From: Tetramitus jugosus | Lineage: Eukaryota > Heterolobosea > Eutetramitea > Acrasida > Vahlkampfiidae | Assembly (NCBI GenBank): GCA_937625935.1 | Contig: OW569382.1 | Span: 248,001-312,000, forward strand | Reading direction: 5' to 3' | DNA length: 64,000 nucleotides | Shown: positions 6,453 through 49,667 of the stretch, piece by piece | How positions within the stretch are numbered: the stretch's first letter is position 1 | How the letters are laid out: the number at the start of each line of letters is the position of its first letter | Made by a program: the position numbers and the translations under genes | Notes under the pieces: model-generated | The model's database searches: none | What the model saw: the letters and a program-made list of their open reading frames with translations, nothing else | What the model was told of the DNA's origin: nothing

Positions 6453-6457
6453 ATAAT

Positions 6458-17543: not shown

Positions 17544-17558
17544 CCAAGGCGACCAAAA
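17544..17558. repeat. target-site duplication, left copy
   Basis: CCAAGGCGACCAAAA, identical in all 15 bases to 17728-17742. It abuts the T-rich end of the inserted retrotransposon fragment. Confidence 0.85.
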
Positions 17559-17727
17559 TTTGTTTTTTTTAATTCAACCAGTGCAATGGTTGCTCACTTT
17601 ATTATCAGTCCGTTGGTGACATCTCACATTATCGGACCAAACGTCGATACAGCTGTTAGCAGACACACCAATGCTGATCAGCTCCTTACCGCCACAACTA
17701 GACATCTCTAACATACACAGTCCTTAC
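17559..17727 (-). mobile_element. 5'-truncated non-LTR retrotransposon copy upstream of tRNA-Trp
   Basis: A 169-bp insert between perfect 15-bp direct repeats. On the minus strand it ends GGTTGAATTAAAAAAAA, a poly(A) tail on nearly the same 3' terminus as the elements at 51062-52179 (GGTTGTATTTAAAA) and 53958-54111 (GGTTGTATTAAAA). The minus-strand frame also gives an alignable remnant of the same C-terminal protein region: M-S-x(5)-EL-x-x-IGV-x(6)-IDVWSDNV here, against M-S-x-x-DEL-x-x-LGV-x(5)-IDLWFDSV there. Stops confirm it is dead. Its 5' end faces the tRNA gene, and the near repeat edge is 38 bp from the tRNA 5' base. Confidence 0.85.
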
Positions 17728-17742
17728 CCAAGGCGACCAAAA
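17728..17742. repeat. target-site duplication, right copy
   Basis: Second perfect copy of the 15-bp repeat at 17544-17558. It lies 39-53 bp upstream of the mature tRNA-Trp 5' end. Confidence 0.85.
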
Positions 17743-17780
17743 AGTTCGACCCGATTTCAAATTCCTAAGTAATATGGAAC

Positions 17781-17852
17781 GGGGGGTTAGCTCAGCGGTA
17801 GAGCATCTGACTCCAGATCAGCAGGTCGGGCGTTCAATTCGCTCACTCCTCA
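17781..17852 (+). tRNA. tRNA-Trp (anticodon CCA)
   Basis: A 72-nt cloverleaf without an intron. The acceptor stem GGGGGGT pairs with ACTCCTC through two G-T pairs, and the discriminator is A. The D stem GCTC/GAGC, anticodon loop CTCCAGA (CCA, Trp) and T stem GGGCG/CGCTC around TTCAATT are all present. The anticodon stem has one mismatch at its base (T27 against C43). Internal A and B boxes lie in the usual arms. Confidence 0.93.
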
Positions 17853-17909
17853 CGAATATTTTTTGTTGTTTTCTCTTTTCTTCACACAAGAAACAAAACA
17901 ACAAAGAAA

Positions 17910-18528
17910 ATGGAAGTGAATAAGAAGCCAGTCAGACATTGCAACGTTTGTGACAAGGAAGAGCAACTCAAACAATGTACGGGATGCAAGCAAGCCATGT
18001 ACTGCTCTCAAGAGCATCAAAGACAAGATTGGCCCACTCACAAGGAGCTTTGCAAAGCTGTCAAGTCAGCAGAGCAAGAAGGTTTCACGATCATGAAAGT
18101 GATCAAGCAAGGTGATGAAAAGACTTTTGCAAAGAAGGGAGATAAAGTCAGAGTTCACTACACTGGTACCTTGGTCAATGGTAATCAATTTGACTCTAGC
18201 AGAACACGCAATGAACCATTTGAGTTTATTGTTGGTGGAAAGCAGGTGATTAAGGGATGGGACGAAGGATTCAAGAGAATCTCTGTTGGAGAACAAGCCA
18301 TTCTTGTCATTTCACCAAGCTACGGATACGGTAGCTCTGATTTGGGAGAGTAAGTGTGATTAAGATTTGTTTGTTGTTTGTTGTTTGTTGTTACTTGCTT
18401 GTTAGTTTGCATTGTGTTTTTTTTCAAGTGATCATTTTGTACTCACTCAATTGTGTGTATGTGTGCCATTTAGTATTCCTCCAAATTCAACTCTTGTGTT
18501 CGATGTTGAGTTGCTTGAAATTTTGTAA
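17910..18528 (+). CDS. MYND zinc finger fused to FKBP peptidyl-prolyl isomerase
   Basis: Exons 17910-18349 and 18474-18528 give 164 residues; the 124-bp intron is GTAAGT...TTTAG, and the join restores the conserved FKBP end (DIPPNSTLVFDVELLEIL). Residues 11-48 are a MYND finger: C-x2-C, C-x2-C, YC-x3-H and a final H-x3-C, around QDWPTHKELC. Residues about 58-164 are an FKBP12-type domain. Rotamase-pocket residues are visible in VHYTGTLVNGNQFDSSR, QVIKGWDEG and SPSYGYG, so the fold looks catalytically competent and probably FK506-binding. MYND fingers bind proline-rich peptides, a plausible partner activity for a prolyl isomerase. The start is 57 bp after the tRNA. Confidence 0.9.
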
Positions 18529-18573
18529 AGAGTCTCTCTCACTCAGTAAACGCGTGCACAACGATCTGTGATC

Positions 18574-20667
18574 TCACATTGGAAAAATTTTATTCTTGTA
18601 GAAGGACGACCGCGGCTCTTCGACTTTGCGTTTGAATATGGGAATGGCCTTCTTTTGTGCTTCAGAATCAGCTCCTATCGCTTCAAGATCTAGAAGATAG
18701 GTCTTCATTTTTCCCTTTCCTTTGATATCTGTCATTCCTCTCTCTTCAAACGGAAATTTGCCATTCAATGAGGTATGAGTTGTTTCTGAAATGTGTAGGT
18801 GGCCTGTGAGACCGTGTGATTGCATTCTGGAAGCCACATTGACCGTGTCCCCAAATATGTCGTACACATATTTCGTAGTGCCTACGACACCAGCTACGAT
18901 TGGGCCACTGTTTATACCTATTCTAATGCCAATGCTCAGACCTAATTGTTCTCCAATGATTTTGGTGACATTGTACATGCCAAGGGCTTGCTTCACTGCT
19001 CGTTCTGCATGATCTGACACTTGTACAGGTGCTCCTGCCACGGCCATGAAAACATTACCAATGGTTTTAATCTTTTCGACACCTACCTGTGAGCATACAT
19101 GATCGAATCCAGAGAATATGGTGTTCAGGAGGCGAACCATCTCTGTGGATTCTGCATTGAAATTGTACAATCCAGACATGTCACTGAACAAAACTGACAC
19201 TTCTGATATTGTATCTGCGATTAACATTCGACTGATGATAGATTCACTCTCTGTCTTCACGTGATCTGCTCCCGAGTCGCTCGTAAGTGTGGACTCATCC
19301 ACCTTTTTTGCCTCTTTTAACCGCTCATAGATCACCTCAGGTAACATGTTAAATACTAACCTCTCACTCTTTTCCTTCTCCTCCTTCACTCCCTTCTGCA
19401 ATCCCTCAATACCATCCAACAATAGATTTACCTGCTTGGCCATATTCCCTAGCTCATCTCTCCCTTTCAACACGACTCTCTGTCCCACATTCATCGTTTT
19501 GGCTATACTCTTCACTTCTTTAATAAGTCGTAGAGTTCTGCTTATCACAGCTCTCTCGATGAAGAGGATAAAGGAAACAGAGACAAGAATACCTATTAAC
19601 ACTAGCGATCCAAACGCGAGCAAAATGGATTTGACTGACAACTTGTAGATATCTCTTTCAATGTCAGCTCTCCAGATTGCCACGGGTTTGCCGAAAACGT
19701 CAGACACTATATTATACGCAGCTATCCGGTTCACTGACAACTGTTCCTCCATACCCTCACTACAAACCCTATTCAGCTCTTTACCAGACTTGAGTACACC
19801 AATGTATGAAGGAGAACTATTCTTCCACTCAGGAGTCGTAACAGATACAGAGGATACTCGATGATTCCCTTTTTGAACGTGGCTCCACATTGGCGAAGAG
19901 TGATTATATGGTTGCATAGTTATACAAAATCTGTTTCTTGAAGCAATGTTTTGTAGTTGTAACTCTCTTAGGATGGTAGCCATACAAAATAATCCATAAG
20001 AGTTTCCAACCATAGCTCCAGCTTGTATTGGAGCACAAGAGATCATGAGAATATCATCGCTACAATTGATGTATCCGCCACTCCTCGTAGTAATATCCTC
20101 CACTCCTTTCAAGAGAGGATGATTGATGTCCAGATGTTGCAATTCAGACGGTGGAGTGAGAGGTGTGCTATCTATGGAATCATAAGAAGAATGAAACAGC
20201 AAAGTTCCATTCCGGGCATAGAACAGGGCATAATCCACTCGAATCACCTTCATGAACGCGTCGCCTAGATTGTCCACACTGAATGTCTGAGCTTGAGTCA
20301 TATTGTTGCTATAGTTGAAATCATCCAGCAATTGCATGGTATCATCCCATGCTGCTATCGGAAGAGCAGTAGCCAACAAACTTTCTAAATCATCATACAG
20401 GTTCCGTATCAATCGTTGTGATACATTATTTGCTTTAGATACTTCCAACTTTGAGAAACTCTTTGCAAACACACTAACAATCACTATTGCAAAGGCACAA
20501 AACATTACAAGAAAAAGAAAGACCAATACAGTCGTTGTCTTGACTCTCAGACTCATTAACCGTCTCATGAATCTCTTTCTGAATTTCTCGCTTCTGGTAG
20601 ACAAGGAACCGAAACTGGTACTCCAACTGTTACTCCCATTGGGATATGAGTGTGTGGTATCTTTCAT
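18574..20667 (-). CDS. CHASE4-HAMP membrane nucleotide cyclase, C2-like catalytic domain
   Basis: 697 residues in one exon. Membrane segment at about 43-68, then an extracellular CHASE4-type sensor with the family WDDT motif and N-glycosylation sites, a second membrane segment at about 340-362, a HAMP linker (RTLRLIKEVKSIAK...ELGNMAKQVN), a short coiled coil and a class III cyclase domain (about 485-670). Catalytic inspection: first metal Asp496 is present (FSDMSG); the second metal position is Asn538 (KTIGNVF instead of GDxF); the ATP-type Lys is present (EKIK); the transition-state residues Asn610 and Arg614 are present (TVNVASRM). This is the pattern of a C2 half. It probably needs a partner. 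Divergent from the paralogue starting 104 bp away. Confidence 0.9.
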   Translation of the reverse strand: MKDTTHSYPNGSNSWSTSFGSLSTRSEKFRKRFMRRLMSLRVKTTTVLVFLFLVMFCAFAIVIVSVFAKSFSKLEVSKANNVSQRLIRNLYDDLESLLATALPIAAWDDTMQLLDDFNYSNNMTQAQTFSVDNLGDAFMKVIRVDYALFYARNGTLLFHSSYDSIDSTPLTPPSELQHLDINHPLLKGVEDITTRSGGYINCSDDILMISCAPIQAGAMVGNSYGLFCMATILRELQLQNIASRNRFCITMQPYNHSSPMWSHVQKGNHRVSSVSVTTPEWKNSSPSYIGVLKSGKELNRVCSEGMEEQLSVNRIAAYNIVSDVFGKPVAIWRADIERDIYKLSVKSILLAFGSLVLIGILVSVSFILFIERAVISRTLRLIKEVKSIAKTMNVGQRVVLKGRDELGNMAKQVNLLLDGIEGLQKGVKEEKEKSERLVFNMLPEVIYERLKEAKKVDESTLTSDSGADHVKTESESIISRMLIADTISEVSVLFSDMSGLYNFNAESTEMVRLLNTIFSGFDHVCSQVGVEKIKTIGNVFMAVAGAPVQVSDHAERAVKQALGMYNVTKIIGEQLGLSIGIRIGINSGPIVAGVVGTTKYVYDIFGDTVNVASRMQSHGLTGHLHISETTHTSLNGKFPFEERGMTDIKGKGKMKTYLLDLEAIGADSEAQKKAIPIFKRKVEEPRSSFYKNKIFPM

Positions 20668-20771
20668 TTCTCGAGTTCTGTGATAGCGTAAATCATGAAA
20701 AGCCGTTGCCGGGTTTGTGGCGACATTTTGGAGGAAACATCCTCAAAAGGAAGAACACTCATTACACGAAA

Positions 20772-22816
20772 ATGAGCGACGAAGGAAGTATCATCGAGAA
20801 ACATATGACAGATAACGATGTAACTAATGAAGTTGAAAAAACTTCTTTCTTAAGAAGTATACGTTTCAAATCAATCATAGTTCTCGCAGTATTGCTCGTG
20901 TTAGTCTTCCTCGTATACTTGGCAATTATTCTAGGAATTTTTCCAAAGAGCTTTCAGGTGCTAGAGCATTCTCAATCAGGAGATACCATCATCAGAGTCC
21001 ATCGAGTTCTTTATGATGATCTTCGAAGTATTTTAAACGTTCTACTTCAGTACAGTCAATGGGATGGAACTCTGGAAGGTAAGAATTTTCCTCCCTTCTC
21101 TTTTCTTCATCTTGGAATACTCATCCCTTTGTGTCTACTCTAATAGTGATGGACAACTTTTCGAACTCTGCTGCCCATGATTATACGATGAACAACTTGA
21201 GTAACGAGTTCCTTAGTAGCGTGAGACTCGAATTTGCTATTGCCTATTTTCCTAATGGATCTTTAGCATTTGGTAGAGGCTATGATTATCTGAATGATAA
21301 GGACATCGAAATACCGCAAGAATTATCTCATTTGGAACCGGGAGTCCATCCGTTGATGATTAATACTTCTTATGCGGGTTCGAGAAGTGGAGGTTTACTA
21401 CATCTATCGGGTGGGAAAACACTAGCAGTAATAAGTGACCCTATTCAACAAACCATTTATGATGAGAATGGAAGAACGAACGGTCGGATGATATTTGCTA
21501 GAACTTTCAATTCTAATACAACAATGTTGGACTACGCCACCCGATCCAGAATATGTTTTTCAATGATCCCATATCAATCCAACGATTCTCGGTCTGTGCA
21601 ATTGAGAAGAGAGTCACTTGGAACCAAACCGGTTGTTGTAGACGTTTCTACTCCCCGGTGGAAAAACAATCGGGAATTCTTAATTGCACCACTCCATGAC
21701 ACTTCCAACAGGTATTGTTCGCCCACGGATTCAGAGAAAGGAAAACGAATCGCAAGTTACTCCCTGCTTCAAGATGTGTTTGGTGAACCAGTGTTATTCC
21801 TTCAATCTGACATCCCTCGAGATATAGTTAGATTAGAAATATCCAGCTTGTCCCTCGCGTTTGGAATGCTACTGCTCGTTATATGTATAGTTTCATTCGT
21901 CATCGCTCTATTCATTGAAATGGTTGTAGTCAAGCCTGTCACTGAATTAAATGGAAGGGTTAAGCAAATTGCAGCCAGGAGCGAAATGACTGATAGAGTA
22001 AAGGTAAAGAGCAGAGATGAACTTGGATCTCTGGCATTCGGTATAAACAGAATGTTAGACTCTCTGGAATTAGGTCACCAAGAACTGGAAAATCAGAGAG
22101 CTGAGAGCGAAAAACTACTCATGAACATGTTGCCAGAAGTTGTATCCAGAAAACTGAAAGCACAAGGACATTCACATCCATCATTTGTTGGAACTGTTGG
22201 TATTTCTGTGGAAGATAGTCTCTTGAACACTTACAATACCACTATTTTAATTGCCGAGTCCTTTCCCAACATTTCTGTCATTATCAGTGATATAGTAGGA
22301 TTCACTGCCCTTTCATCAAAAACAGAGTCACATAAGTTGGTATCCATATTGAACATGATGTTCTCTTCTTTTGACCAGGTATGTTCAAGAGTAGGAGTCG
22401 AAAAGATTAAGACTATTGGAGATGCATTTATGGCTGTCGCTGGAGCACCTATTCAAGTGGATGATCATGCTGATCGAGCTATAAAGCAAGCTCTAGGGAT
22501 GCTCGAGGTAATAGCTAGCATGAGAAAACAGTTGGATGTGGATGTTAACATTCGAGTAGGTATCAACAGTGGCCCCGCGGTTGCAGGTATCATTGGAACA
22601 ACAAAGTATGTCTATGATATTTTCGGAGATACTGTGACTGTAGCCTCGACAATGGAATCTCATAGTTTGCCTGGTTGTGTCCTTGTTTCGGAGTCAACTG
22701 TCTCCCTGGTTACAATACCCTATCCCTTTGAAAAGATGTCTCCTTTCCCAGTCAAAGACACAAAGGTGACAGGATATCTATTGAGACCGGAAGATATCTC
22801 CACAGTCAATGAGTGA
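20772..22816 (+). CDS. CHASE4-HAMP membrane nucleotide cyclase, C1-like catalytic domain
   Basis: Exons 20772-21078 and 21147-22816 join (GTAAGA...AATAG) to 658 residues. The domain order matches its neighbour: membrane segment at about 36-58, CHASE4-like sensor (SQWDGT), second membrane segment, HAMP, coiled coil and class III cyclase domain (about 475-650). Both metal-binding Asp residues are present (ISDIVGF Asp484; IGDAFMA Asp528) and the EKIK Lys is kept. The transition-state Asn and Arg are replaced by Thr600 and Thr604 (TVTVASTM). This is the C1-half pattern, as in the DVTLANVM of animal C1 domains. A homodimer would lack the phosphate-stabilising pair. The intron falls within the sensor region. 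Confidence 0.9.
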
Positions 22817-22926
22817 ATGGTGGCTCGTCAATGAAAAAGTGAATATTTATGGTTTTGTATTTACATGATCCTGAGTTTGATTATTTTAACCTAAGGTTCT
22901 TCCGATCCAGAATAACTCCTTAGAAG

Positions 22927-24000
22927 TTACTGAAGCAATCGTGCAACAGCTTTTGAAATGTCTCCCTTGAACTTGTCCAACCACTTCTTATTTTGTTCAA
23001 CATTGTCGAATCCCATGGCAACTAACGAGTCCAACGCATTTTGGAACTGATACTCTGGAATGACTGGAACAGGGGCTGGTGTTGGTGTTGGTTCTTCTTC
23101 GTCCATGACAATGTTACAAATCATGTCTGAATTGAATTCTCGAGCCAAGGGATTCAAAATTTCAAATTCTTCATCATCTTCTTGCTCCTCCTCCCAATCA
23201 TCTTCCATCAACTCACTAGAATCTGAAGAAGATAATGATGAAGTGTCAGAACCTGAGCTAGATTCTGTATCGACATGAATAACATCAATTTCCTTGGTTT
23301 CAATGGTGAATGGTATGAAATCTGTGATTTTGGTTTGTCTCCAGTCATAGTCACTCGTGCTAATTTCATCCATTTCTTGGGGACTCAATTCTTGATCTTC
23401 CGAGACGACTGTCTCTTCCTGCTCGTTCAGAGGAGTTTGAAGGACGAATTCCGAGATTCCAGTCACGACCTGTCCCAAGGAATTTTCAATGTCTTTGGAG
23501 GTTTCCTTCACCCAAGACATTCCCCTTTCAATTTCTTCACTGTCTTCAATTTGTCTCTGCAAACCGTTCAAAGCTTCACTTGTCTCTTGCATCAGAGTGT
23601 TCAATGCTTGAGATGTTTGTTGGATAATGGTGGAGACGGTGGCCGAATAATCCACGTTTTGCTTTCTTTGATTGAATGCCTTACTTCTGACAGTGAATTT
23701 CATGGTGTGATGAAAGTTGGACATGTACAGTTTTCTTTGTTCTTCGACGGCATCTCTCCACTCTGTCTCAGAAGCAATGGTTACCCAGTCATGTTCTCTG
23801 TCACAATAGGAAATGTGAATGTCAAGTGGCTCTGTCAGGAATTGACTCAATGATAAGTCTTGTTCAGTTGTGTTTTCGCATTGAAGATCTCTGATCATGA
23901 GTTGGAATTCGAGGAAACTGATTTCAGGATCGATTCGATTTCTTCGAACGGAGCGTTCAGGTTGAAAGTAAATCTTAATTGGTAGTAGAGTTCCGTCCAT
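22927..24000 (-). CDS. PB1-UBA protein resembling p62/NBR1 autophagy receptors
   Basis: The protein has 357 residues. Residues 5-108 look like a PB1 domain. The basic face is LPIKIYF plus Arg18-20, and the acidic OPCA loop is SYCDREHDWVTIASETEW, so the domain could polymerise. The C-terminal 40 residues (318-357) are a UBA domain (LDSLVAMGFDNVEQNKKWL...ISKAVARLLQ), closest in style to NBR1. Between them is a Ser/acidic linker with DDEEFEIL (276-282), a good LC3-interacting-region pattern (acidic residues, then F-x-x-L). ZZ and FW domains of p62/NBR1 are missing. A role in selective autophagy is inferred from this layout. Confidence 0.75.
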   Translation of the reverse strand: MDGTLLPIKIYFQPERSVRRNRIDPEISFLEFQLMIRDLQCENTTEQDLSLSQFLTEPLDIHISYCDREHDWVTIASETEWRDAVEEQRKLYMSNFHHTMKFTVRSKAFNQRKQNVDYSATVSTIIQQTSQALNTLMQETSEALNGLQRQIEDSEEIERGMSWVKETSKDIENSLGQVVTGISEFVLQTPLNEQEETVVSEDQELSPQEMDEISTSDYDWRQTKITDFIPFTIETKEIDVIHVDTESSSGSDTSSLSSSDSSELMEDDWEEEQEDDEEFEILNPLAREFNSDMICNIVMDEEEPTPTPAPVPVIPEYQFQNALDSLVAMGFDNVEQNKKWLDKFKGDISKAVARLLQ

Positions 24001-24323
24001 TGTTCTTTGTGGTAGGTGAGTTCTTCTGTTTCTGTTGTTGATGTAAGTATTGTTGTTTTTTGGTTCCTTCTGATCACATATGATCCGCTCTGGCTATTAA
24101 ATGGCTTTGGGTTTGAACGATTGGCAGGTGTCTGAATCGAGGTTGTTCATGCCATTTTTATGGAGGAACAAAAAACCAAGTGCCCAAAACCAAAACAGCA
24201 TGATCAGCAGGGATAAAAAATACTTGTCTGGTTGACTTTCTGGAATTGTTTATGAAGGAACCAAAATACTCTGTTTAGTATTCCATAGTAATGAACAGAA
24301 TTCTCAAGGTGCAATCTTGTTAT
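24001..24323. other. intergenic
   Basis: 323 bp between the PB1-UBA start and the stop of the exonuclease-ATPase gene. I see no gene, repeat or strong structure; it must hold the PB1-UBA promoter. Confidence 0.4.
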
Positions 24324-27219
24324 TTATTTGATTTGTGGGGCAAGTGGATCCACTGTTTCAATTCTCTTTGTCATGACAGACGTCTCTGGATCGAATGATC
24401 TCAGTTCATACTGATAACTCTTTCCTGCAAGAATCTTCTTGACCACAGATGAAATATCTCGATAAACCTTCCAACTGTTGAGATCCTCTTTGGATAGTTC
24501 GATAATATTTTCGAAGATAGGAGTGTCCTTCATCTGCGTGTGCACCTTCTTGTTGTCATGCTGTAATGCAGCAGCATCTCCAATAATGACTGTCTCCACT
24601 CCTCCCAATAGATTACAAAGAATTGGATTCTTCATTATGGATTGCATGTTACCATGAGCTGACGCACACAAGACCACTCCTCTTTGAGCTATTGTTCTTG
24701 CAGTCAAAACTTCTTTGCTTGTTCCAATCTCGTCAATTACAATGACGTCTGGAGTATGGTTCTGAACCGCTTGAATCATCACTTCCTGTTGCATACGAAT
24801 ATCAGGCACTTGCATTCTTCTGGCTTTCCCGATTGCTTGATGAGGAGTGTCTCCAAATCCGCCAATTTCACATGAAGTATCCACAATCATCACTCGATCC
24901 TTTTCAGACATGACTCTTGCAATGTCTCTCATTATCGTAGTCTTTCATTCCAAGCAAAGAGTTAGTGGTGGGATACAAATAAGAAACACATCAGTTGTTG
25001 AACAATAGATAACAAACCTTGCCTGTACCAGGATGTCCAAGAAGTAGAATGGATTGAGTCTTATCAGTAATATCGCTCAGACGATCAGCGATATTCATGA
25101 CAGCTCTTCCTACTCTAAGAGTTAAACCATTGATTTCTCCTCCTCTATTCTTCATGGAACTGATGCGGTGAAGCGTTCCATCGATTCCAGATCTGTTGTC
25201 ACCTCCAAATTCCAGTTGTTCAGCCACATGATTTATATGTTCGAATGTCACCTTTCCGAAAGACATTCTCTTGCCTCTGTAATAGAATACCTCGTAAGGT
25301 CTGTGAACATCCATTGCAATCTCCACAATTTCCTCTACAGAGAAATCAGCAGGCAGACCATTTATGTAATCCCTAATCTCTTCAGGCATCAGATCCAATA
25401 ATTGATCAACTTCATCCACAACCATTGGTTCAGTGCATTGTTGAATCAAAACAGTCTCAGTTGTCACAGAGTTGGATTGTGGAACTAGAATGGGATTGGA
25501 TTCTGATACAACGACGGGATTGGTTTGTGGAATCGCGACAGGGATAATCTTTGGAATTCCAACATTTGCAACCAATTTTTCAAAATGCATTGTATATGCG
25601 TCGATCTCATCATTCATTTCTTCCATTCGAGATTTGTCGACCTCAGAGAGCATAGTTCTAGCGAGCACTACCAACGAAATTACATCCTGAGCGGCATACA
25701 TCTTCATGAGGGGAGTCAGTGGTCTTACTCTCCAGTATGTTCGATTTAACTGGAAGAAAGGTTTAATTTGCTTCTTGTAAGGATTTCCTAGTCCATATTT
25801 CTCGCAGAGTGTGGTAAAACAGATTCTCTTTTTCCCATTCGTGCCGACAAATTTGTTCATTACTTGTGTGTCTAGGACTCCTCTGAGTCTGATGTTATAC
25901 TGATGATAGAGCACACAACTGTCCTGCCTACAATCATGAAATATTTTAATCTTCTTCTCATTCTCGAACCACTCCTTGAGGAGCAACGTAACTTCCGCCT
26001 TTACAGGATTGGAGTCAAGCATATCAAAGAGGAATTGATTGGTCTCACATCCAATCTGTACCAAACACAATTGGCCGCTTTTTCCCAAACCTTCCCCCTC
26101 ACAATCCACCGCTATGGTATCAGAATTAGAAATAATATGTCTAGCATAAGCCAACGACGAGTTATCATCGACCAAGGTCACAGAGTCAAGTTCAACGACT
26201 GGAACGCTACTCTTAGGGATAGGATTCACTGGTGAAACTACCATAGGGTAACTGTTGATTTGTGGAGCGACTACAACAGGAGTCTCAATGATAAGCTTCT
26301 TCTTTTCTGATAACCTCTCAAAATGCATAACGTATGAGTTGATCGCGTCATTCATCTCCTTGATTCGAGGCAATTCCACGCTTTTCAACATAGTGTTGTA
26401 CAGCTTTACCAACGGTTTCACATCATGAGAAGCATACATCTTCATAAGTGGAGTCAGTGGTCTGATTCTCCAGTATGGTTGATTTCCTCTGAAGAATGGT
26501 TGTACTAGTTTCTTGTAAGGATTTTCTTGTAGTCCATACTTTTCACATAGTTCACAAAAGCCGATTTGGTTGTTTTGGTTCTCAATAAATGCGTGCATAA
26601 CCTGTGTATCCTGTACACCTTTGAGTGTAATATTGTATTGGTAATACAATGCACTGCTGTCCTGTCTACAATCATGGAACACTTTGATTTTTTTCTCATC
26701 CTCGAACCACTTCTTGAGTAGAACTGTAATTTCTTCTTTCATCGGATTGGAATCCAGCATGTCAAACAAGAATTGCTTCTTTCCGCATCCAATCTGGACC
26801 AGGCACAATTGGCCAGTTTCACCCAAATTTTGACCCTCGCAATCCACGGAAATTATGTGGGCACTACCGATACCTTGACTAGCAAGTGCCAAAGAAGTGC
26901 CATCTTCTACCACGATCACAGACTCAGGTACAACTATATTACGGCTCAACTTAGTTAGATCCTTTATGAATTCTTTAGCTTCCTCCTTCAATAAGGTTAC
27001 ACGTTGGATTGCACCGTTTTCGTTACACACTGTCTGTACGAATGAATACTTCTTAATTTGTCTTCTTATTCCTCCAACTGGATATCCTTGGAGTACTAAT
27101 CCCTGTTTTATCTGGGAAATTGTTAGACTTGGTTTCTTTTTGAGCATGTTGATAAGGGCTTCTTCTCTTGTAATAACAGCAGTCGCTCGCTCATTATTCT
27201 TGGATGTTGATTGTGACAT
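24324..27219 (-). CDS. tandem DnaQ-like 3'-5' exonuclease fused to Ycf45/SpoIIIAA-type ATPase
   Basis: Exons 27219-25018 and 24941-24324 give 939 residues; the 76-bp intron (GTTTGT...GAAAG) splits the Walker A motif, which is restored as GHPGTGKTT (about 728-736). Residues 20-80 may be a small helical N domain. Two repeated exonuclease domains follow (about 118-280 and 366-525), each with DEDD-type residues: Asp126/Glu128, Asp183 and Asp266, then Asp372/Glu374, Asp429 and Asp512. The region 605-935 is colinear with Ycf45/SPD1 and bacterial SpoIIIAA: MPEEIRDYINGLP, EFGGDNRSGIDGTLHRIS, VDTSCEIGGFGD, IGKARRMQVP, and Walker B VIVIDEIGT. The R3H domain of Ycf45 is not seen. A role in organellar or nuclear nucleic acid processing is inferred. 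Confidence 0.88.
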
Positions 27220-27466
27220 ATCTTCTTGTTGATAGGCAATTCTAATAAGTTAGTTGTTTGGTTTTTGTTGTTCTTGCAAAGTGTCAGTCTGATCCCACAA
27301 AGTTCTAAAAAGACCATTTTCCAAGGACCTTCCTTCAAATTTTGTTCCGCTTGATGTTCTTCCTTGACTTTTTACCGCCAAAGAAGCGAGAATTCTGTCC
27401 GACAATAAAATAAATCCGAGGAACAATAGAATATTTTCCGGCAACAACCAGTGGAAAATCAAAAGC

Positions 27467-28531: not shown

Positions 28532-28693
28532 TCCTCACTTTTAACAACAAAAATTCACAGTGATCATTGCTCGCTCTCACTTTTCGGTTTTTATTTACTT
28601 TAAGGAGTTTGTGCATTCTTTTACAACAAACTTGATTGAATCAAAATGGAGAGACAAGAGCACATTCACACCAACACACATTAACACAATTCA

Positions 28694-41439: not shown

Positions 41440-41739
41440 TATGTTATTTGGAGGAGATATTTGAGGTTGTTGATGTGGAAGTTTGGGTGGTTTTGTTGTT
41501 GATTTGAGTTTGTTTTGTGTCGGTTTTGTGCGCGAGAACACAGCCTAAAGATGCGATTCTTTTTTTCGATTCCCTCTATTCAAATACACATATTCCTCAG
41601 ATTACAATATCCAAACCACCCAAACCACTCCAACGATACACTGTGTATTCTGACCATTTGAGGGCAATGACACCCACCTTATCACAAGCAAGTGATTTTG
41701 CTTGTTTTTGAACAACAATTTTTATTTGATGATCAATGA

Positions 41740-42156
41740 TTAAGCTTCCATTGCTTCCATGGATTCCTTTTCTCGATTGCTCCTATAGTACATCCAATGC
41801 CTTCGTTGCTGATCCATCAAAAATTGTGAGAATCCTGCTTTGGCACACTCGGATCGAAATCCTTCATCTTGCAACCGATCCAAATAGTAGAGACAGTTGG
41901 GGTACATGATAAACTTGGAGTACTCTGGTTGTTTCCAATATAATAAATATTTGAGGTAGCTAATGAATGACTTGTCTTCAAAGTACTTGTACTGTGCCAA
42001 GTGTTGCAAGTAAAAGGGATTGGCAAGCATTTGAACAAATTCTAGTTCGACTTGAAATCGAATTTGTTCTTCTTCGTCTATGGGTGCGGTGGTATCGGCT
42101 TCCTCGTCTTGTTGTTCCTTCTCATTTTTTATGACTGGATTGCTTGTGTTCATCAT
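41740..42156 (-). CDS. MED31: Mediator subunit 31
   Basis: The protein has 138 residues. The core RFQVELEFVQMLANP, YLQHLAQYKYFEDKSF, YLKYLLYWKQPEY and DRLQDEGFR...QQRRHW is unmistakable MED31/SOH1, the small four-helix subunit of the Mediator middle module. Two ATG codons in tandem begin the frame; the first is used. Short extensions at both ends are acidic or Met/Glu-rich. Confidence 0.95.
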   Translation of the reverse strand: MMNTSNPVIKNEKEQQDEEADTTAPIDEEEQIRFQVELEFVQMLANPFYLQHLAQYKYFEDKSFISYLKYLLYWKQPEYSKFIMYPNCLYYLDRLQDEGFRSECAKAGFSQFLMDQQRRHWMYYRSNREKESMEAMEA

Positions 42157-42426
42157 GTTCTCTCGTTTTCCGCTTTTTTGTTCAAGAGATCACTCGAACC
42201 AAATTCTAAAATACCGATCAAAAAGGCGCCAAGAACTCATCTGTCGTTTACAATTTCATAGCCAGGTTGACAACGACCATGTTCAATCAGCTATAAATTC
42301 TGTGCACAAAAACAAACAACTACAGTTTCTTACCACCAATACAAAAAAAATCAAATACAATAATCTCCATCTTAACTTAAAGCTTTGAAGCTCTATTCAA
42401 CAATCATACCTCCAATACAAAAAATA

Positions 42427-43506
42427 ATGACTCATACAACCAACAATCAAGAATACCCTACCAGTAGAGCCATAGAAGAACGTTACAGTACTCTGTCTCT
42501 GGATACGGAAGCAATGACTCTGAATAGTCTATTGAATTTTACTCCAAGTGATACCATCACTACCCAAGAACAACACTCGAACAGAGTTCCCTTTTCCAAG
42601 TCTTCCTCCTCTGCTCCCTCTCCCTGTAATCATCATCATCATGAACAGCAACTGCAACAAAAAGACCAAACTCAAAAATTTCAACACCATGATGAAATTA
42701 TCACCCAAGAACAAGAACAAGAAGCAGAAGCTTGGCTCTTTGAACAAAATGTTCAACACACAGTGTCTCAGTGTATTGATACTCTGTTTTCAACCAACCA
42801 TTCTAGGAGTGAAGATGAACATGCCATACAAAAACACATGGAGCAACAACAGCCATTTGCCTATCATTTGTTGAGTCAAGTTCCACCCTACTTGAACCAA
42901 TGTAACATTGTTCATTCAAGAATACAAAAACTCGTCCATGATGATGCAAGTGTAAAGCTCAACAGCCAACCAAGTTGTCCTCTGTCCAGTGATCATCATG
43001 ATGTAGTTGTTGTTGGATCATGCCATCACAACAACTCCCTTTCATCATCATCATCATCACCAACTGCAACTACAACTGACAATCACAAGTACAAGACAGA
43101 GCTATGTAGGTCATACTTTGAAACTGGTCATTGTCGATATGGCAAAAAGTGCAAGTTTGCTCATGGGAGACAAGAGCTAAAGACTGTTGTTCGTCACTCC
43201 AAATTCAAGAGTGAACTCTGCTACAATTATCATTATTGTGTGACTTGTGTTTGTCCCTATGGTGTTCGTTGCTGTTTTTTGCACGAGATCCCATTAGAAT
43301 TCTTGGGAAAAGCTGTCGCCGAAAATATTGACTCTGTTTTGTTGTATCAGAGCAATCTGCGATTGAAAGCTTTCACTGAGCTATGTGAACAAAAAGAGGA
43401 GGAACCGGTGGCCCTTAGTGAGATGATGAAAAACAGAGCAAAAGAACCAAGTTTGGGAACGAGATGGAAGAAGAATGAAAATCAGGGGTTGTATCATAGA
43501 GCCTGA
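42427..43506 (+). CDS. tandem CCCH zinc-finger RNA-binding protein, TTP-like, atypical second finger
   Basis: The protein has 359 residues from the ATG giving MTHTTNNQEY; the open frame extends 14 codons up only through TTG. A low-complexity Gln/Ser/His region precedes two fingers. Finger 1 is canonical: KTELCRSYFETGHCRYGKKC with KFAH, that is C-x8-C-x5-C-x3-H. The linker RQELKTVVRHSKFKSELC is TTP-like. Finger 2 reads CYNYHYCVTCVCPYGVRCCFLH, with ten residues rather than eight between the first Cys and CPYG, and extra Cys. TTP-type proteins bind AU-rich elements and direct mRNA decay. The remaining tail is charged. Confidence 0.85.
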   Translation: MTHTTNNQEYPTSRAIEERYSTLSLDTEAMTLNSLLNFTPSDTITTQEQHSNRVPFSKSSSSAPSPCNHHHHEQQLQQKDQTQKFQHHDEIITQEQEQEAEAWLFEQNVQHTVSQCIDTLFSTNHSRSEDEHAIQKHMEQQQPFAYHLLSQVPPYLNQCNIVHSRIQKLVHDDASVKLNSQPSCPLSSDHHDVVVVGSCHHNNSLSSSSSSPTATTTDNHKYKTELCRSYFETGHCRYGKKCKFAHGRQELKTVVRHSKFKSELCYNYHYCVTCVCPYGVRCCFLHEIPLEFLGKAVAENIDSVLLYQSNLRLKAFTELCEQKEEEPVALSEMMKNRAKEPSLGTRWKKNENQGLYHRA

Positions 43507-46063
43507 GTTAATAAAACGAGTTGTAATGTAGATTTTTATGTGATTGCAATCACTTTGTGTTGCGTTTATTCGTTAGTGTGTATGAGAAAGCGAAAACTCA
43601 TACTGTTCAACTCCTGATTCATTTGCCAAAGCATGAATGGAATAAGGTCATTCACACAGGAGGAGTCCTTTGGAGAGAGTCTCATTGCAGAATAATTGCT
43701 ACTCATGTTCGCACTGATGCCTAGCTCATCAGTGATGGGTACCTCTGTTTCCCTTCTGGAAATATCAGCCTCTGTTAGACGAGGAGGAAAGCTTTTGTAC
43801 ACAGTCTCTGTACTTGACACTTTTCTTTGAATTACCATCCATCGTCAATCGATACTAGCTTGATCCTGCTTTCAGTATGTTGTTACTTTGTTGTTACTTA
43901 TTCATCACTCAGCTCACTACGATTTGATGAACGTAGCTATTCATTGTTCAATTCCTTTTATCCCAGTAGATCCTTACAACTGTAAAACTAGCACCTATTG
44001 TATAGTGACCGTCGTCCAAGAATAATCACTTTTTCGTCAGTTCATACTAGAGTCATTCAAAGTGTGGTTGGTTCTTCTTCACGAAGAACATCACATAGAA
44101 CACAGGTTTTTCGACTTCTTCTTTTCCCATTAGTGGATTGTTCCTCTGTAATCTTCAGGTATTATTTCATTGCTTGAGCCATTGCTTGGCATCTCTTTCG
44201 GGAAATCAACTCCTTTTATCAAAAAACAATCACGAACTTGTATTGTTCCTAAGGTTGGCTTGTACCTTTGTGAGTCAGCAGTGTTTTCTATAGATCCTTG
44301 TTGTAGTGGCACCACAGTGGTTCGTCATATCGTCGTCGCAACTCTGTCTGGTTCAGAGATTTTTCAGCATTACTCCAGTTGAGAAGTCCTCATCTTCTCT
44401 TCTGTTATCTTATCTTGATCGTCCATGGACTGACCTTGGTTGAATCGAGCAACGTGCGATCTCTTCTCATAGATATCACTCTTACTAGTTCTGCTCTTTG
44501 TCCTTTAACAGTATTGCTCTTTGTCTGTCGTCACCCAATGATCTATTACCCAATGATCTATTCTCTTCGAATAGTCAACTGAATTCATGCACATTGCTCT
44601 TGGCCGAATCTGAATAGAACCTATCGTGTGTAGTATATGAAGTTTCCTTCACCAAAACAAATCCAATGTCTAAAAGCTCTATTGCCATTTCTGGCTCTTT
44701 TCCTTCAAGTGACCTGAGAGATGGCAATCTTGTGTGGATACGTACCATTTAGTGATTGATTCCTTTGGGTGTGTGTTAGCCACACACAATCTTCAAATCA
44801 TCTGTTGTAGTGTAGGAGGTTAAGGGATTTTTCATCCATCCACCGAGTGGAAGTTCCTTCACAATGATCCAAACAGTCCGAATCAATAGTATAGGGGGTA
44901 GGGGTGAGAGTAAAATACTCATGCCGCTTCGATAGAGTAGTTGATTGTCGTGGTTGTTGCATGACCAGACTGAAGAACTCTCTTCACTGAGCTGACGTGT
45001 GGATTGAGTGAACCAAGGAAGGATTGATTTTTGCATACCTTCATTCCTATCCTTGTCACCTTTCTTCCTCACACTCAGTCATCCTAACGTTTTCACCAGG
45101 TAAGATTCAGTCATCTTGTAGTTCGCCTGTCGCAGTTTGTCAACATTTTCATCGTCGTCATCATCTGTCGTCTATCTTCCAAGTTATCATCATATCACTT
45201 GATCAATTGTAAATAGCTCTGCTTACACGTAGGTAGTTTTCTCGCATATAATAAAGTAAACCTTAAAATTTCCATTTTCTGAATGATCGTCCTAATACAT
45301 CTATCTGCACAATTGCTTTCTTCTGCCAATCAACATCTCTGTGAGTCCCAGGGAGCTCGTGAACCAACACACACTAGCCAGTGTGTGCTGGCCACATCAG
45401 AGAAGATGATACATGTATAGGATTAAAATGTGTCAGTAACTTTTATCACAATTCCAAGCTGCACTGAAGCAGCATTGGAATGCGAATGTTCTCATGAAGA
45501 ACGGAAAATTCTTTCAGAAGGAGTAGGTCACCAAAACAACAATTGTAAGGTAGCAAGAAACACTCCGATTACATACCATCACCCTGAGACTGACTGCATC
45601 CACTGGTAGTATGTGGATACAGTCAAGAAGTGAGCAGTGCTTCTCTATAGAGTACGTGTTCCGAACGGATCCAACAAACCAAAAAGTGTATCAAAAACTC
45701 AAACATTATTACTATTATTGCTACTATTATCGTATATAAAAATCGTCCTAGCTAGATAAGCTATCATCCGCTTCTGTAGGGTACTTAATGTACATCCGAG
45801 TTGTGATAATTCTTTATTTCCCGTAGTAGTTAACACTCAAGACTGTTTCTTCTCTTGACAACAAGAAAGATCTTCCTCAACACTTCAAACTTGAACCTAG
45901 AGTTGTTGTGATCATGTCAGCACAAAAACAAACGCTGAACACTGAGACTACTTGCCGTCGGTTTGGTTCACCTTACACATGAACACTTCTTTCGTTCTAT
46001 GCCGTGAAAAGTAAAGGAGGAAATGACGGAGGAGAACACAGTAAAACCAATCAAAAAACAAAA
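43507..46063. other. gene-poor interval
   Basis: 2.56 kb with no convincing protein gene. The longest frames (43566-43838 minus, 90 codons; 44776-45072 minus, 98 codons) have no recognised family, and part of the first is overlapped by another protein-like frame, so spliced or decayed coding sequence is possible. A 7-bp perfect hairpin, GTTCTTC/GAAGAAC, lies at 44071-44089. The only dense structure is the hairpin cluster at 45368-45624. Confidence 0.45.
45368..45624. ncRNA. candidate structured RNA: cluster of four hairpins
   Basis: Stem-loops: 45368-45387 (CACACACT/AGTGTGTG, with an overlapping alternative GCCAG/CTGGC at 45377-45392); 45451-45481 (ATTCCAAGCTGC with GCAGC and TTGGAAT, one bulged A); 45488-45502 (GTTCT/AGAAC); 45592-45624 (12 pairs with one C-A mismatch, 9-nt loop). 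No open frame crosses the cluster. I recognise no known RNA class. Strand is unknown. It could be a processed RNA or chance. Confidence 0.3.
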
Positions 46064-46434
46064 ATGTCGACAGCAGTGCAAACAAACGTTTCTGAGAAAG
46101 CGAATACGAGTATGACTAGATCAATCTGAGTGGTGGTAGGTGTGGTCCATGTGTAGTTGATGATTGTGTGAACGTAGAAGTGAAAGAACACTGGAACGAT
46201 GTTGAAACGGTTCCTTTTGAGTTGTTGCTTGGTACCTTTGGAGTTTACCTTCTGGCTAACATCATGGGTAGTTTAGTACTCATCATATCATGGTTATTAG
46301 TTTCGGGATTGTGTGTGATTGGTTTGCTTTGTGTGACTATTGCTCGGTTGATCCGTCCGAGCTGGCTTTTAAACCTTCGGTCTGCGATCAAGTTGTATTC
46401 TTGGGTTCCTGAAATAAATTGTTGGTTGACCTGA
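46064..46434 (+). CDS. small membrane protein, unknown family (spliced model)
   Basis: Exons 46064-46109 and 46178-46434 give 100 residues; the intron is GTATGA...CGTAG, and the phases agree. This supplies an ATG (MSTAVQTNVSEK) to a frame that otherwise begins with GTG. Residues about 30-75 are very hydrophobic (LLLGTFGVYLLANIMGS, then LIISWLLVSGLCVIGLLCV), probably a membrane hairpin, with short soluble ends. The shape recalls promethin/LDAF1-type proteins but no motif proves this. Confidence 0.45.
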
Positions 46435-46560
46435 ATTTGTCCATCCTTGGTGATTTGAACACATCGAGTAAAACAGATCATTCAAAAATAGTCTGTTTTG
46501 ATTCCTTTTCAAGTTTGATTGATGGATATTTTTTTGGTTTCTCTTCCTTCATAACCTTTG

Positions 46561-47988
46561 TTACCATCTTCCTTGTCGCAGAATAACACCTGGACGAGGA
46601 GGCACAACTACAGGAGCGTTGGCAGCGTCTTCATCAGTTAGTACTGGGTCCTGCCTTGGAATACACTGATAGTTTGAGAGGGCATCCACCTGCCACAGAT
46701 AGCCTGGATACTTTCTGAACCGTTGTTGCTTTTTTGCTGCACCGATAGCATAGTTGTTGTGCACTACATACACATCGGCAAACCTAGAGCGTGGCAAACT
46801 TGGATCAAAGTAGAACATGCCATTGGGGAAGAGATTTCCTGGGAGATAGGCCACTTTGATTTGTCCCCTAGTAGCTGCTCTCTGAATCATTTGTTGTTCA
46901 TTGTCAATCGATGGGTCAATAGCATTTTGTGTCAATTTTGTAAATTCCAAAGTCACATTCCTCCACACTTCCTTCATTTTGCCTGTGTTCTTCATGTACA
47001 AAAATCCACCACAGGTGACATGTTGATCGTGTACAGGGCTATCATCTTGAGCAATCAGATCATATTCCTTAAACTGTTCATTCAACAAGTATGGAATGGG
47101 ATTGCGCAGCCAAACAGAATCATTATCAGCGATAATCACGTTCAAATCAGAAGTCACCAATAACTTCTTAATAAACTCAGTTCTGTACAATATTAATCTC
47201 TGATAACCAAGTGTTTGAAAAGAGAGAGAACTTCCATCACTGGTGCTGTGATCCTTGGAAGCTCTCTTGTCTATAAACACATTGAAAAAGTTGTGTTGTG
47301 TAATGAGCTCCCATGCAATCTTTGAATCTGGAGTGTAGATGATTACTTGATCCAAAATCGATTGTCCACTTCCATCTGGCAAATTCTTGATACTACACAA
47401 CCAATTATAGAGGTAAGCTCTAAATCCAAATGTTGTCGTCGTCGCAATAATTTGTCTTGCTGCTTGTTTATTGCCTTCCTTGTCATAAATGGGCGTCGCA
47501 ATTCGCGCCACTTTTTCTTGTAAAGTTTCATGGAGGGCATATTTCGCAAATAGAGCCACACTGGCAGAGCTTTCCTGTGTGGTGGTCCATTTGGCAAGCT
47601 CTTGTTCATTCCAAGCTTGTTCATTAAATTCTGAGGAATGAAAATCGAGCAATGCATTGACATGCTGTGGCTCTGGTTCCTTCTTCTTCTTCTGAGGAGG
47701 AGGAGGAGGAGTAGAAACAACAGCATCAGCAGCAGCAGTAGGAATAACAGGAGCAGTATCAAGAGCACCTGCGAGTGGTGGTGATTGACCAATAGGAGAT
47801 GCATCATCACGCTCTATCCGTCTTACGCAACCAACAAACAACAAGGAGAGAATAAAAAAGACGAGAAAAAATTTACTCTTGGAAGAGATGAGGACACGGT
47901 GAGTTTGGTCGCAGAATGATGATTGTGGTCGGGATTCTTCTGATGATGAGAATCGATGACGTGGAGTCCTAGAGGTGGCTACTATCAT
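46561..47988 (-). CDS. type II membrane glycosyltransferase, GT77-like
   Basis: The protein has 475 residues. A cytosolic stub is followed by a signal anchor (about 38-56, KFFLVFFILSLLFVGCV), a disordered Pro/Ala stem, and the catalytic domain from about 185. Landmarks of the nucleotide-diphospho-sugar transferase (GT77) family are IIADNDSVWLRNP (DxD-type Asp-Asn-Asp), VTCGGFLYMKNT, DNEQQM and VVHNNYAIGA. GT77 includes plant arabinosyl-, galactosyl- and xylosyltransferases of the Golgi. Donor and acceptor cannot be told from sequence. An alternate frame covers the Pro/Ala stem. Confidence 0.85.
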   Translation of the reverse strand: MIVATSRTPRHRFSSSEESRPQSSFCDQTHRVLISSKSKFFLVFFILSLLFVGCVRRIERDDASPIGQSPPLAGALDTAPVIPTAAADAVVSTPPPPPQKKKKEPEPQHVNALLDFHSSEFNEQAWNEQELAKWTTTQESSASVALFAKYALHETLQEKVARIATPIYDKEGNKQAARQIIATTTTFGFRAYLYNWLCSIKNLPDGSGQSILDQVIIYTPDSKIAWELITQHNFFNVFIDKRASKDHSTSDGSSLSFQTLGYQRLILYRTEFIKKLLVTSDLNVIIADNDSVWLRNPIPYLLNEQFKEYDLIAQDDSPVHDQHVTCGGFLYMKNTGKMKEVWRNVTLEFTKLTQNAIDPSIDNEQQMIQRAATRGQIKVAYLPGNLFPNGMFYFDPSLPRSRFADVYVVHNNYAIGAAKKQQRFRKYPGYLWQVDALSNYQCIPRQDPVLTDEDAANAPVVVPPRPGVILRQGRW

Positions 47989-48130
47989 GTGTTGTTGGTT
48001 TCGTGTTGTTTGTTTCTGTGCAAGTTGTTTTCCTTGGGTATAATTGTACGTGAATTCATTGAAGAGAGTGGAAAATATTTCCCTACGGACATGGCGGAAA
48101 AGACCATCACATTGGACTCTACACCTTCAC

Positions 48131-48547
48131 ATGGGAAGTTATGTGAAGGTGAAGAGTAGGGATAGAATCTTCTTGTGGAATAGGTCATTCCTTCTCACAT
48201 ATTCCTCATTGCAACACCAGCTCACTTCATCACACCACGCCAAATTCATCTGGATGAATCAACTCAATTATTACTTGGTTACAGAGGTTGCCTATTGGAA
48301 GCTGCTTGAAAATCGAACACAGAACAGAAAGGCTGTTCGCAAATTGATTCGTCAATTGAAGAACCAAGATGCGCTTTTGAAACGATTTGAATCACCCATT
48401 AGGAACTACCAGAGCAAGAACTGCATGGGTTGTGCAAGTCAAGTAGGCACCATATCGGATGGTGGAGATAACTTCAATAGTCTGTATACCTTGTTTTATC
48501 ACAGTTTGAAACAGTTGGTTTACGGAGGCGTACTTCGGCGGTTGTGA
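48131..48547 (+). CDS. possible small protein gene or gene remnant
   Basis: 138 codons from an ATG giving MGSYVKVKSR to a TGA. The section YYLVTEVAYWKLLENRTQNRK to SKNCMGC looks protein-like, with a helical and charged composition, but no family is recognised. A protein-like frame continues after the stop in another phase (SAFRSDESVEDLKRVQRQEL, to about 48650), so this may be a decayed gene, a frameshift or an unseen intron. An alternative spliced start at 48091 reads MAEKTITLDST. Confidence 0.3.
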   Translation: MGSYVKVKSRDRIFLWNRSFLLTYSSLQHQLTSSHHAKFIWMNQLNYYLVTEVAYWKLLENRTQNRKAVRKLIRQLKNQDALLKRFESPIRNYQSKNCMGCASQVGTISDGGDNFNSLYTLFYHSLKQLVYGGVLRRL

Positions 48548-48719
48548 GTAATGATTTGAGTGCGTTTCGGAGTGACGAATCAGTGGAGGACTTGAAGCGA
48601 GTTCAACGTCAAGAACTCAATTTCTGGAGTACTAAGATTCACGCCAAGAGCTTTTTCTTTTTTTTCTTACATGGAATACAAAGATTAAAAGATCTCATTA
48701 ATAGAGAGGGCTGATTCTT

Positions 48720-49526
48720 TAGTACAATGGTCGCACTGTTGGGTTCTCGTTCAGTGCACAGCAATCGTTCCATTTTTGACTATGAATTGTCTTGGATTCA
48801 GGCAATCATCGATCGTTATCCAGTCGATACTCATCTATATCAGAACGTGCTTTTTTTTCTGCTGTCGTATCCAAGTCATCTAACACTTACGAGTTGATGC
48901 AGTCTTTGCAGCTTGGCACCATTGATCTAAAGTGAGACCATTAGGATCAGTGGTCACACTAAACAAACTGAGTTTACATTGAGTTAGTTGATGTTCTACA
49001 GAGACCCAAAAGAGGTGGTAGACTTTTCATACAAAGAAAAGATAGCTTAAAGTACATCTGTCTATCCTGTTTCCTGACAAGATCGAAATCATTGAATAGT
49101 TTGGAAACCATTTCACGGTTTCCAAACTCCAGGCTGCACAGCAGAAAAAATTACCTCTTTCGGTAGTTTCTTGTAGAAACCAACAACGGTAAACTATTAA
49201 AACAACATATTCTAAAGCGTTGAGAACCCCTAGGCTCAAGTAAGGCAAGGCGATCTCAGATCATCACCTTATTCCCTGAAAATCCACGACTTCCAAATTC
49301 AAAGCGAAAATTTAATCCCACGTTACTTACACATCATCTGTAATGCTAAGTATTGTCAAAGAACATGATCTTGAACAATGGAGTGTCGAACAATGGAGTT
49401 CCAAACACTTGTTCTTGTAACATTAGTGTTCCCATTACTAGAGTAGTAGGGGTACTTGCCAACTCAAAATGAACAGGATTGTTAATTCGTGATGAGAATG
49501 GTTTTGGCTCTCAAAAAAATAGATAT
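48720..49526. other. intergenic with a perfect 12-bp hairpin
   Basis: No gene is seen in about 800 bp downstream of tRNA-Asn. At 49098-49128 there is a perfect stem AGTTTGGAAACC / GGTTTCCAAACT with loop ATTTCAC. At about 49376-49405 the unit GAACAATGGAGT is repeated in tandem with variation. Confidence 0.45.
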
Positions 49527-49599
49527 CTCCTCCAGTTGGGCTCGAACCAACGACCTGCAGGTTAACAGCCTGACGCTCTACCAACTGAGCCATGGAGGA
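49527..49599 (-). tRNA. tRNA-Asn (anticodon GTT)
   Basis: 73 nt on the minus strand, no intron. The acceptor stem TCCTCCA/TGGAGGA has seven Watson-Crick pairs, discriminator G. D arm GCTCAGTTGGTAGAGC, anticodon loop CTGTTAA (GTT, Asn) and a GGTTCGAGCC T arm are all canonical. Retrotransposon insertions begin 41 bp upstream of its 5' end. Confidence 0.97.
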
Positions 49600-49640
49600 A
49601 TTGTTTCATAGTTCCTTGCGCGAGTAGTAAAACGCAGTAA

Positions 49641-49655
49641 AAACGCTCATGAAAT
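49641..49655 (+). repeat. junction repeat A: target-site duplication or conserved 5' end
   Basis: AAACGCTCATGAAAT, repeated with one change at 51047-51061 and as AAACGCCCATGAAA at 52180-52193. Each copy lies at the start of an inserted element, two of them just after a poly(A) tail. Copy A is 42-56 bp upstream of tRNA-Asn. Confidence 0.7.
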
Positions 49656-49667
49656 AAAAAAACCCCG

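Follow-up and report, generated by a model that had tools for sequence, protein, structure and literature searches.

Non-LTR retrotransposons lie head to head with tRNA and 5S rRNA genes at a narrow upstream distance

We analyzed a window of 64,000 nucleotides (nt) from a 26.3-Mb genome assembly (C39:248001-312000; C numbers denote contigs), in which retrotransposons without long terminal repeats (non-LTR elements) lie a short distance upstream of tRNA genes. ARAGORN and Rfam, the latter at its gathering score, agreed with the initial annotation of this stretch that the tRNA-Trp and tRNA-Asn genes are the only tRNA genes detected in the window (Table 1). Rereading the tRNA-Trp locus reproduced the truncated insert described there, including its perfect 15-bp flanking repeats and its 38-bp distance from the gene. 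The tail of this copy corresponds to the pattern match at C39:265565-265579, and the insert is 81-83% identical to other copies across 108-109 bp.

At tRNA-Asn, the first target-site repeat was likewise found where it had been reported, 41 bp upstream of the gene, and it returns after a poly(A) stretch at about 51047-51061 with one mismatch. This repeat overlaps a leader-like stretch that begins at 49629 and resembles the start of an older copy, and at least three copies are stacked at this locus, all in the same direction. The element here that carries only open reading frame 1 (ORF1) is 95% identical across 1385 bp to a copy in another genomic stretch (L039), where the adjoining gene is also tRNA-like. 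The second stacked copy ends in tail GTTGTATTT at 52167, and its zinc-finger-like segment matched zf-RVT with an E value of 0.0029, below the Pfam cut-off. As claimed previously, the 5' end of the element faces the tRNA gene at both loci, and the inserts share a tail motif. Allowing up to one mismatch, GTTGWATT followed by A occurs four times in the window compared to 0.49 expected, with none of 100 shuffles reaching four, and three of the four tails belong to the tRNA-Trp and tRNA-Asn loci. The upstream pattern thus held at both tRNA loci, whereas the fourth tail, which the initial annotation had not mentioned, lies where no RNA polymerase III (Pol III) gene was recognized.

Table 1. Positions of tRNA genes, target-site repeats, and element copies in the window
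Feature	Position	Strand	Remarks
Target-site repeat CCAAGGCGACCAAAA, distal copy	17544-17558	.	15/15 bp same as gene-side copy
5'-truncated non-LTR copy	17559-17727	-	3' tail GGTTGAATT + A at low-coordinate end
Target-site repeat CCAAGGCGACCAAAA, gene-side copy	17728-17742	.	38 bp from tRNA-Trp
tRNA-Trp gene (target)	17781-17853	+	ARAGORN; Rfam RF00005 61.1 bits
tRNA-Asn gene (target)	49526-49600	-	ARAGORN; Rfam 67.4 bits
Target-site repeat AAACGCTCATGAAAT	49641-49655	.	Starts 41 bp upstream of tRNA-Asn
ORF1-only non-autonomous element	49656-51049	+	ATG 12 bases inside 5' boundary; poly(A) tail
ORF1, 414 amino acids, open	49668-50912	+	Low-confidence model: two RRM-like folds, then long helix
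Second stacked copy	51059-52177	+	Open frame, C-terminal ORF2 part; zinc-finger-like CCHC
Third, older stacked copy	52176-52689	+	Decayed ORF1 remnant; tblastn 56-79% identity
Minus-strand element remnants	53665-54115	-	Tail 53970-53982; exception locus

The association of these elements with Pol III genes is real, strong, and genome-wide. The tail GGTTGWATTAAAAAA matched the genome 96 times and a reversed control not at all. We examined 20 stretches of about 10 kb around tails, the first in contig order, which contain 21 of the 96 matches. In 16 of the 20, the 5' side of the element has a tRNA gene that ARAGORN called on the opposite strand, and three more (L010, L020, and L025) contain a head-to-head 5S rRNA gene. 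The last, L015, holds the first 35 of the 71 bases of a tRNA-Gly gene; an exact target repeat lies 38 bp away from this half gene, which received no call from Rfam. A second tail class, GTTGTATGGAAAAAA, gave 93 matches and again none in the control.

For mapping, RF00005 yielded at least 63 tRNA matches (63 of 1593 first-look candidates scored) and RF00001 at least 47 5S matches (47 of 772), so that the combined Pol III gene map is a lower bound. The mapped tRNA set comprises 53 genes, the 63 scored matches minus 10 on C54 and C56; these two contigs carry the same tRNA matches at the same coordinates and are probably two assembly copies of the mitochondrial genome. The 5S rRNA genes are dispersed, with 120 cores at up to three mismatches, 60 per strand, spread over many contigs among the 100 listed. 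The B-box pattern GGTTCRANYCC matched 534 times compared to 86 in the reversed control, with positions listed to C8:475206. We counted the tails of both classes on C1-C8, up to that same coordinate, that face a head-to-head Pol III gene no more than 2 kb away; there were 25 among 40, compared to a mean of 0.89 and a maximum of 5 in 1000 trials of random placement.

Position and strand are equally uneven around the genes. Of 108 5S genes, 25 have a tail within 6 kb upstream on the opposite strand, compared to 2 upstream on the same strand, 6 downstream on the opposite strand, and 2 downstream on the same strand; in that order, the counts are 15 of 53, 0, 1, and 0 for tRNA genes and 22 of 87, 0, 3, and 2 for B boxes on C1-C7. 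Some of the downstream pairs are tails flanked by two neighboring genes (e.g., on C46). By coordinates, all 10 pairs of a tail with one of the 53 tRNA matches within 8 kb are upstream and opposite. The absence of enrichment named in the initial annotation as a refutation therefore did not occur, and its proposed genome-wide comparison of distance and strand placed tails and 5' leaders head to head upstream of the genes at a narrow distance. Its proposal of a tRNA-targeting lineage stands for tRNA genes and has to be widened, since dispersed 5S rRNA genes are also targeted.

Measured from the other end of the element, the result was the same. The 15-base 5' leader AAAACGCAGAAAAAA matched 48 times in the genome and twice in the reversed control. 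Nine leaders have a mapped gene (six tRNA and three 5S) at a distance of 40-48 bp, and four directly follow a tail. We inspected roughly 170 bp of adjoining sequence for 33 of the other 35 leaders; ARAGORN found a tRNA gene at 21 of them, and 10 follow the tail of another copy (L102 by eye); Rfam recognized tRNA genes at 39.3 and 33.2 bits beside the leaders in L105 and L107, and those in L071 and L074 come directly after tails. Together, 32 of the 48 leaders adjoin a Pol III gene (9 + 21 + 2) and 16 belong to stacks (4 + 10 + 2), with stacks counted by adjacency to a preceding tail alone. Of 27 leaders next to an ARAGORN or mapped tRNA gene, 25 begin 40-54 bp away from it, with nine of these values calculated from coordinates. 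We considered whether insertion is random or biased toward open AT-rich DNA, with selection in a compact genome sparing the copies next to Pol III genes. A gene-dense genome makes such purifying selection plausible, and nick sites lacking a base consensus, as described below, would also suit random insertion. Selection of this kind leaves unexplained the narrow range of distances, the single orientation, and the scarcity of copies downstream and on the other strand, and we rejected it as very improbable.

Copies chosen by their reverse transcriptase (RT) alone gave a similar picture. A 750-amino-acid RT query matched the genome 64 times, and the nine longest open frames (1267-1318 amino acids) are 45-72% identical to it. 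These nine were picked regardless of tail or leader, and seven have a head-to-head tRNA gene; diverged subfamilies therefore have the same habit. A tenth RT copy, on C18 and previously known to lie near a tRNA gene, is also head to head with it.

The target genes include 19 tRNA isotypes by ARAGORN, which bears on whether the tRNA or 5S gene is a cargo of the mobile unit, carried as a small-RNA head, and not its target. Nearly all copies with a visible 5' side adjoin such a gene or a stack, as a cargo would require. A cargo is nevertheless hard to reconcile with the range of isotypes, the placement of the gene on the opposite strand, the 5' target-site repeat between gene and element, and the approximately 40-bp spacer that varies by locus. 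Furthermore, a copy at a tRNA-Arg gene (L056) and one at a 5S gene (L050) are 98% identical across 2.0 kb, and the ORF1-only copy at tRNA-Asn has its 95%-identical counterpart in L039 at a tRNA-Ser-like gene that is cut by the stretch edge. We rejected the cargo explanation as barely conceivable.

Target-site repeats gave the insertion distance more exactly. Of 61 tails, 22 have a repeat scoring at least 12, compared to a maximum of 9 after shuffling, and for 16 of these 22 a recognized gene is no more than 200 bp away. From tRNA genes, the distances to the repeat are 28, 36, 37, 38, 39, 39, 40, 41, 45, 64, and 71 bp; from 5S genes, they are 22, 33, 34, 36, and 48 bp. Upstream of tRNA genes, the repeat typically begins at 36-45 bp, with 28, 64, and 71 bp as outliers; for 5S genes, the usual range is 33-36 bp, and the outliers are 22 and 48 bp. 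The L056 distance is 38 bp, as for the tRNA-Trp copy in the window, and the L050 repeat is 34 bp from its 5S gene. Because transcription of a tRNA gene begins slightly ahead of the mature 5' end, by a few bases, a ruler measured from the transcription start would be consistent with the slightly smaller distance at 5S genes.

The 22 nick sites showed no base consensus, with 14 of 16 columns lacking any preference. A DNA motif shared upstream of the genes might pick the site in place of the Pol III complex, and the two remaining columns, +7 and +8, slightly exceed the 99th percentile of the background; upstream flanks are AT rich, and TATA-like stretches were seen by eye in several loci. Against such a motif stand the 14 columns without preference and the nearly equal distance from tRNA and 5S genes, whose sequences are unlike; motifs in the spacers were viewed by eye only. 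We rejected a shared motif as quite unlikely. Since the nick sites lack a consensus and both tRNA and 5S genes are used, Pol III machinery rather than DNA sequence most likely sets the insertion site.

Several observations weigh against targeting of Pol III genes by these elements. In 27 further, shorter tail stretches, ARAGORN found a tRNA gene in just 10; many of these stretches probably end before the gene, with longer copies running off the edge. Two leaders lie 6 bp (L090) and 58 bp (L103) from the tRNA gene, and the repeat distances of 64 bp (in the tRNA-Asn stack) and 71 bp (L013) are also outside the usual range. Six of the 22 strong repeats have no recognized gene within 200 bp: in three cases (two in L039, one in L050) the stretch edge cuts the gene, one in L015 adjoins the half tRNA gene, one in L014 lies behind a tail, and one is in L025. 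Among the nine RT copies, no tRNA gene was found on the 5' side in L059, where the boundary possibly lies outside the stretch, and the tRNA-Trp-like remnant in L065 was recognized by eye only. In the window, Rfam found no Pol III gene on the 5' side of the minus-strand tail at 53970-53982. Finally, the Pol III complex is a putative guide, proposed from the position of the copies. At this minus-strand locus, we also observed leader-like sequence between the copies and, by eye, a B-box-like word near 54200 that is possibly a decayed tRNA gene.

We read one copy, L056 (C23:91450-96960), from end to end as an insert of about 5.2 kb. An A run obscures its exact 5' boundary, which is some 2 nt ahead of the ATG of ORF1; leaders in other copies begin 18-25 nt ahead of an ATG. 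Across the copies read, which include three ORF1 types, the boundary lies about 2-25 nt from the ATG, leaving almost no 5' untranslated region (UTR). ORF1 of L056 is broken by frameshift and ends in an ATGTTAA overlap of its stop with the ORF2 start, as observed in this one copy. ORF2 of L056 matched the endonuclease family PF03372 (E value, 1.4e-8) and the RT family PF00078 (E value, 1.8e-23). Across ORF2 sequences, Pfam matched PF03372, PF14529, and PF00078 (RVT_1), and no Pfam RNase H family matched the element proteins scanned. A zinc finger after the RT was matched by zf-RVT with E values of 0.0029 to 0.048, below the cut-off, and its CCHC spacing was seen by eye.

A 3' hairpin precedes the tail in L056. 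The CAAC..GTTG arms occur in 50 of 64 distinct 3' ends compared to 3.4 expected from shuffles, and the fifth pair is C-G in 33 ends, A-T in 7, T-A in 1, T-G in 4, and non-pairing in 5. Because C-G, A-T, and T-A all occur, this pair has changed on both sides in some ends. Also in L056, two tandem palindromes of about 23 bp lie around CGCTCTNCGAGCG before the tail (positions 5280-5352), and similar palindromes were seen by eye in several other element 3' UTRs.

Copies carrying only ORF1, of about 1.4 kb, were observed in the window and in L039. No Pfam family scored above its cut-off in three ORF1 proteins, and an ORF1 protein search returned 13 unnamed proteins. Structure prediction from nine aligned rows gave a mean predicted local distance difference test score of 51.8, with residues approximately 11-160 better. 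With low confidence, the model suggests two RRM-like folds followed by a long helix, and the RRM reading comes from residues approximately 11-160.

The initial annotation had proposed placing the RT in a tree. The RT sat by itself on a long branch apart from one close relative, the unnamed protein P0001 (63% identity across 46% of the query region), and in the best tree the RT falls outside the L1 anchor group, which has 100/99 support. Constraining it with L1 gave a P value of 0.135 in the approximately unbiased test, so that L1 membership was neither shown nor rejected. Named anchors were human L1, two R2 elements, and an Anolis protein matching human L1 ORF2, with the other rows lacking a clade label. 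No Dictyostelium protein was named among the 120 of 135 RT search matches listed.

As for the host, its transportin clustered with those of Acrasis and Naegleria (support 100/100) in a single 28-protein tree, which points to an apparent affinity with Heterolobosea, as a relative of Naegleria, judged from this one protein. Percent identity alone is of little guidance because animals also reach 46%. We rejected Naegleria gruberi and Naegleria fowleri as the host, with transportin identities of just 47% and 46%, respectively.

Other open frames were also noted. Divergent frames at 18574-20742 (minus strand) and 21083-22816 (plus strand) of the window resemble membrane guanylate/adenylate cyclases by eye. 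In L027, an opposite-strand frame of 1015 amino acids (3539-6586) lies between a tRNA-Lys gene and tails and is perhaps the gene of a nested DNA transposon. Two overlapping minus-strand frames occur in L024 (1723-3701); by eye, one of them looks like a DDE/Harbinger-type transposase.

Read from the DNA itself, the upstream position, the poly(A) tails with their hairpin, the target-site repeats, the diverged subfamilies, and the stacks are established, as is one orientation wherever a junction gene was identified. We consider it highly probable that the elements form a non-LTR clade of the apurinic endonuclease (APE) type, with an ORF1 and an ORF2 comprising endonuclease, RT, and a C-terminal CCHC segment, that inserts narrowly upstream of tRNA and 5S genes by target-primed reverse transcription. 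In our model, an element protein complex, with ORF1 as the candidate, would bind the Pol III initiation complex once it has assembled, with TFIIIB as the most likely contact, a link drawn by analogy. The element endonuclease would then nick the DNA some 35-45 bp upstream of the gene, regardless of sequence, and reverse transcription of the RNA would orient the copy with its 5' end toward the gene and its 3' end away from it. Since insertion would spare the gene and roughly 40 bp in front of it, the site could be reused, and older copies would be displaced outward.

A further and rather doubtful proposal is that the elements have lost an upstream promoter of their own. With a leader of about 2-25 nt, transcription would have to start at the boundary, so that the targeted landing would supply the promoter, by divergent transcription from the open upstream region of the Pol III gene. 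A newcomer would silence the copy it displaces, leaving one throne per gene, and the arrangement would have evolved independently of the dictyostelid elements. Alternatively, a promoter may lie inside ORF1.

The nearest parallels are TRE5 elements, which insert 40-54 bp upstream of tRNA genes and 37-41 bp upstream of 5S genes in opposite orientation (PMC5911963, PMC5391098). Their ORF1 protein interacts with TFIIIB, and they carry an A-module promoter (PMC5911963, PMC5391098, PMC5006619, PMC4559204). Like the elements described here, TRE5-A of Dictyostelium discoideum combines opposite orientation and a near-equal distance with use of tRNA genes and, at a slightly shorter distance, 5S genes; it has an ORF1, an ORF2 with APE and RT, a zinc finger (here a candidate below the Pfam cut-off), an oligo(A) tail, and an ORF1-only non-autonomous form (PMC5911963, PMC5391098). 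In contrast, TRE5-A has a -1 frameshift between its ORFs instead of the ATGTTAA overlap and a 5' UTR with a promoter module instead of a minimal leader. Its host also differs from the one described here, which groups with Heterolobosea by one protein, and we list the dispersed chromosomal 5S targets as a further difference. In orientation, distance, targets, protein composition, and ORF1-only forms, the elements closely parallel TRE5. We nevertheless keep them apart from TRE5, since neither a -1 frameshift, looked for in L056, nor a promoter-bearing 5' UTR was found in the copies read and RT kinship is hypothetical.

Among other non-LTR elements, NLTR-B of Polysphondylium pallidum inserts 39-64 bp and NLTR-A of Dictyostelium purpureum 2-6 bp upstream of tRNA genes (PMC5911963); both carry an RNase H domain, for which we found no Pfam match. 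TRE3 of Dictyostelium also targets tRNA genes but inserts 40-150 bp downstream in the same orientation (PMC5911963). Zebrafish Mutsu (5S rRNA genes), Dewa (tRNA-Leu spacer), and Keno (U2 snRNA) are non-LTR elements of small-RNA genes (PMC3706591). These are described there as reading the target DNA directly, at a single site in one gene family, whereas the elements here lack a nick consensus and insert at a distance from many gene families. The same source contrasts such sequence-specific elements with TRE5-A, which acts through host proteins (PMC3706591). Ty1, Ty3, Tj1, and DGLT-A likewise insert upstream of Pol III genes but are LTR elements; the host factors of Ty1 and Ty3 are Pol III subunits or TFIIIB, and these two use an integrase where we propose target-primed reverse transcription (PMC5911963).

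According to a 2016 study, tRNA targeting by TRE elements is unique to dictyostelids (PMC5006619), and our literature search, thin on subscription journals, listed no paper describing non-LTR elements of other organisms that keep a fixed spacing to Pol III genes. The elements described here would offer a second system for asking how a long interspersed nuclear element (LINE) finds the Pol III machinery. They could also show whether such targeting arises by convergence in compact genomes and whether the landing site doubles as a source of promoters. LINE insertion that is adjacent to genes and apparently harmless may also be relevant to tools for safe-harbor gene insertion.

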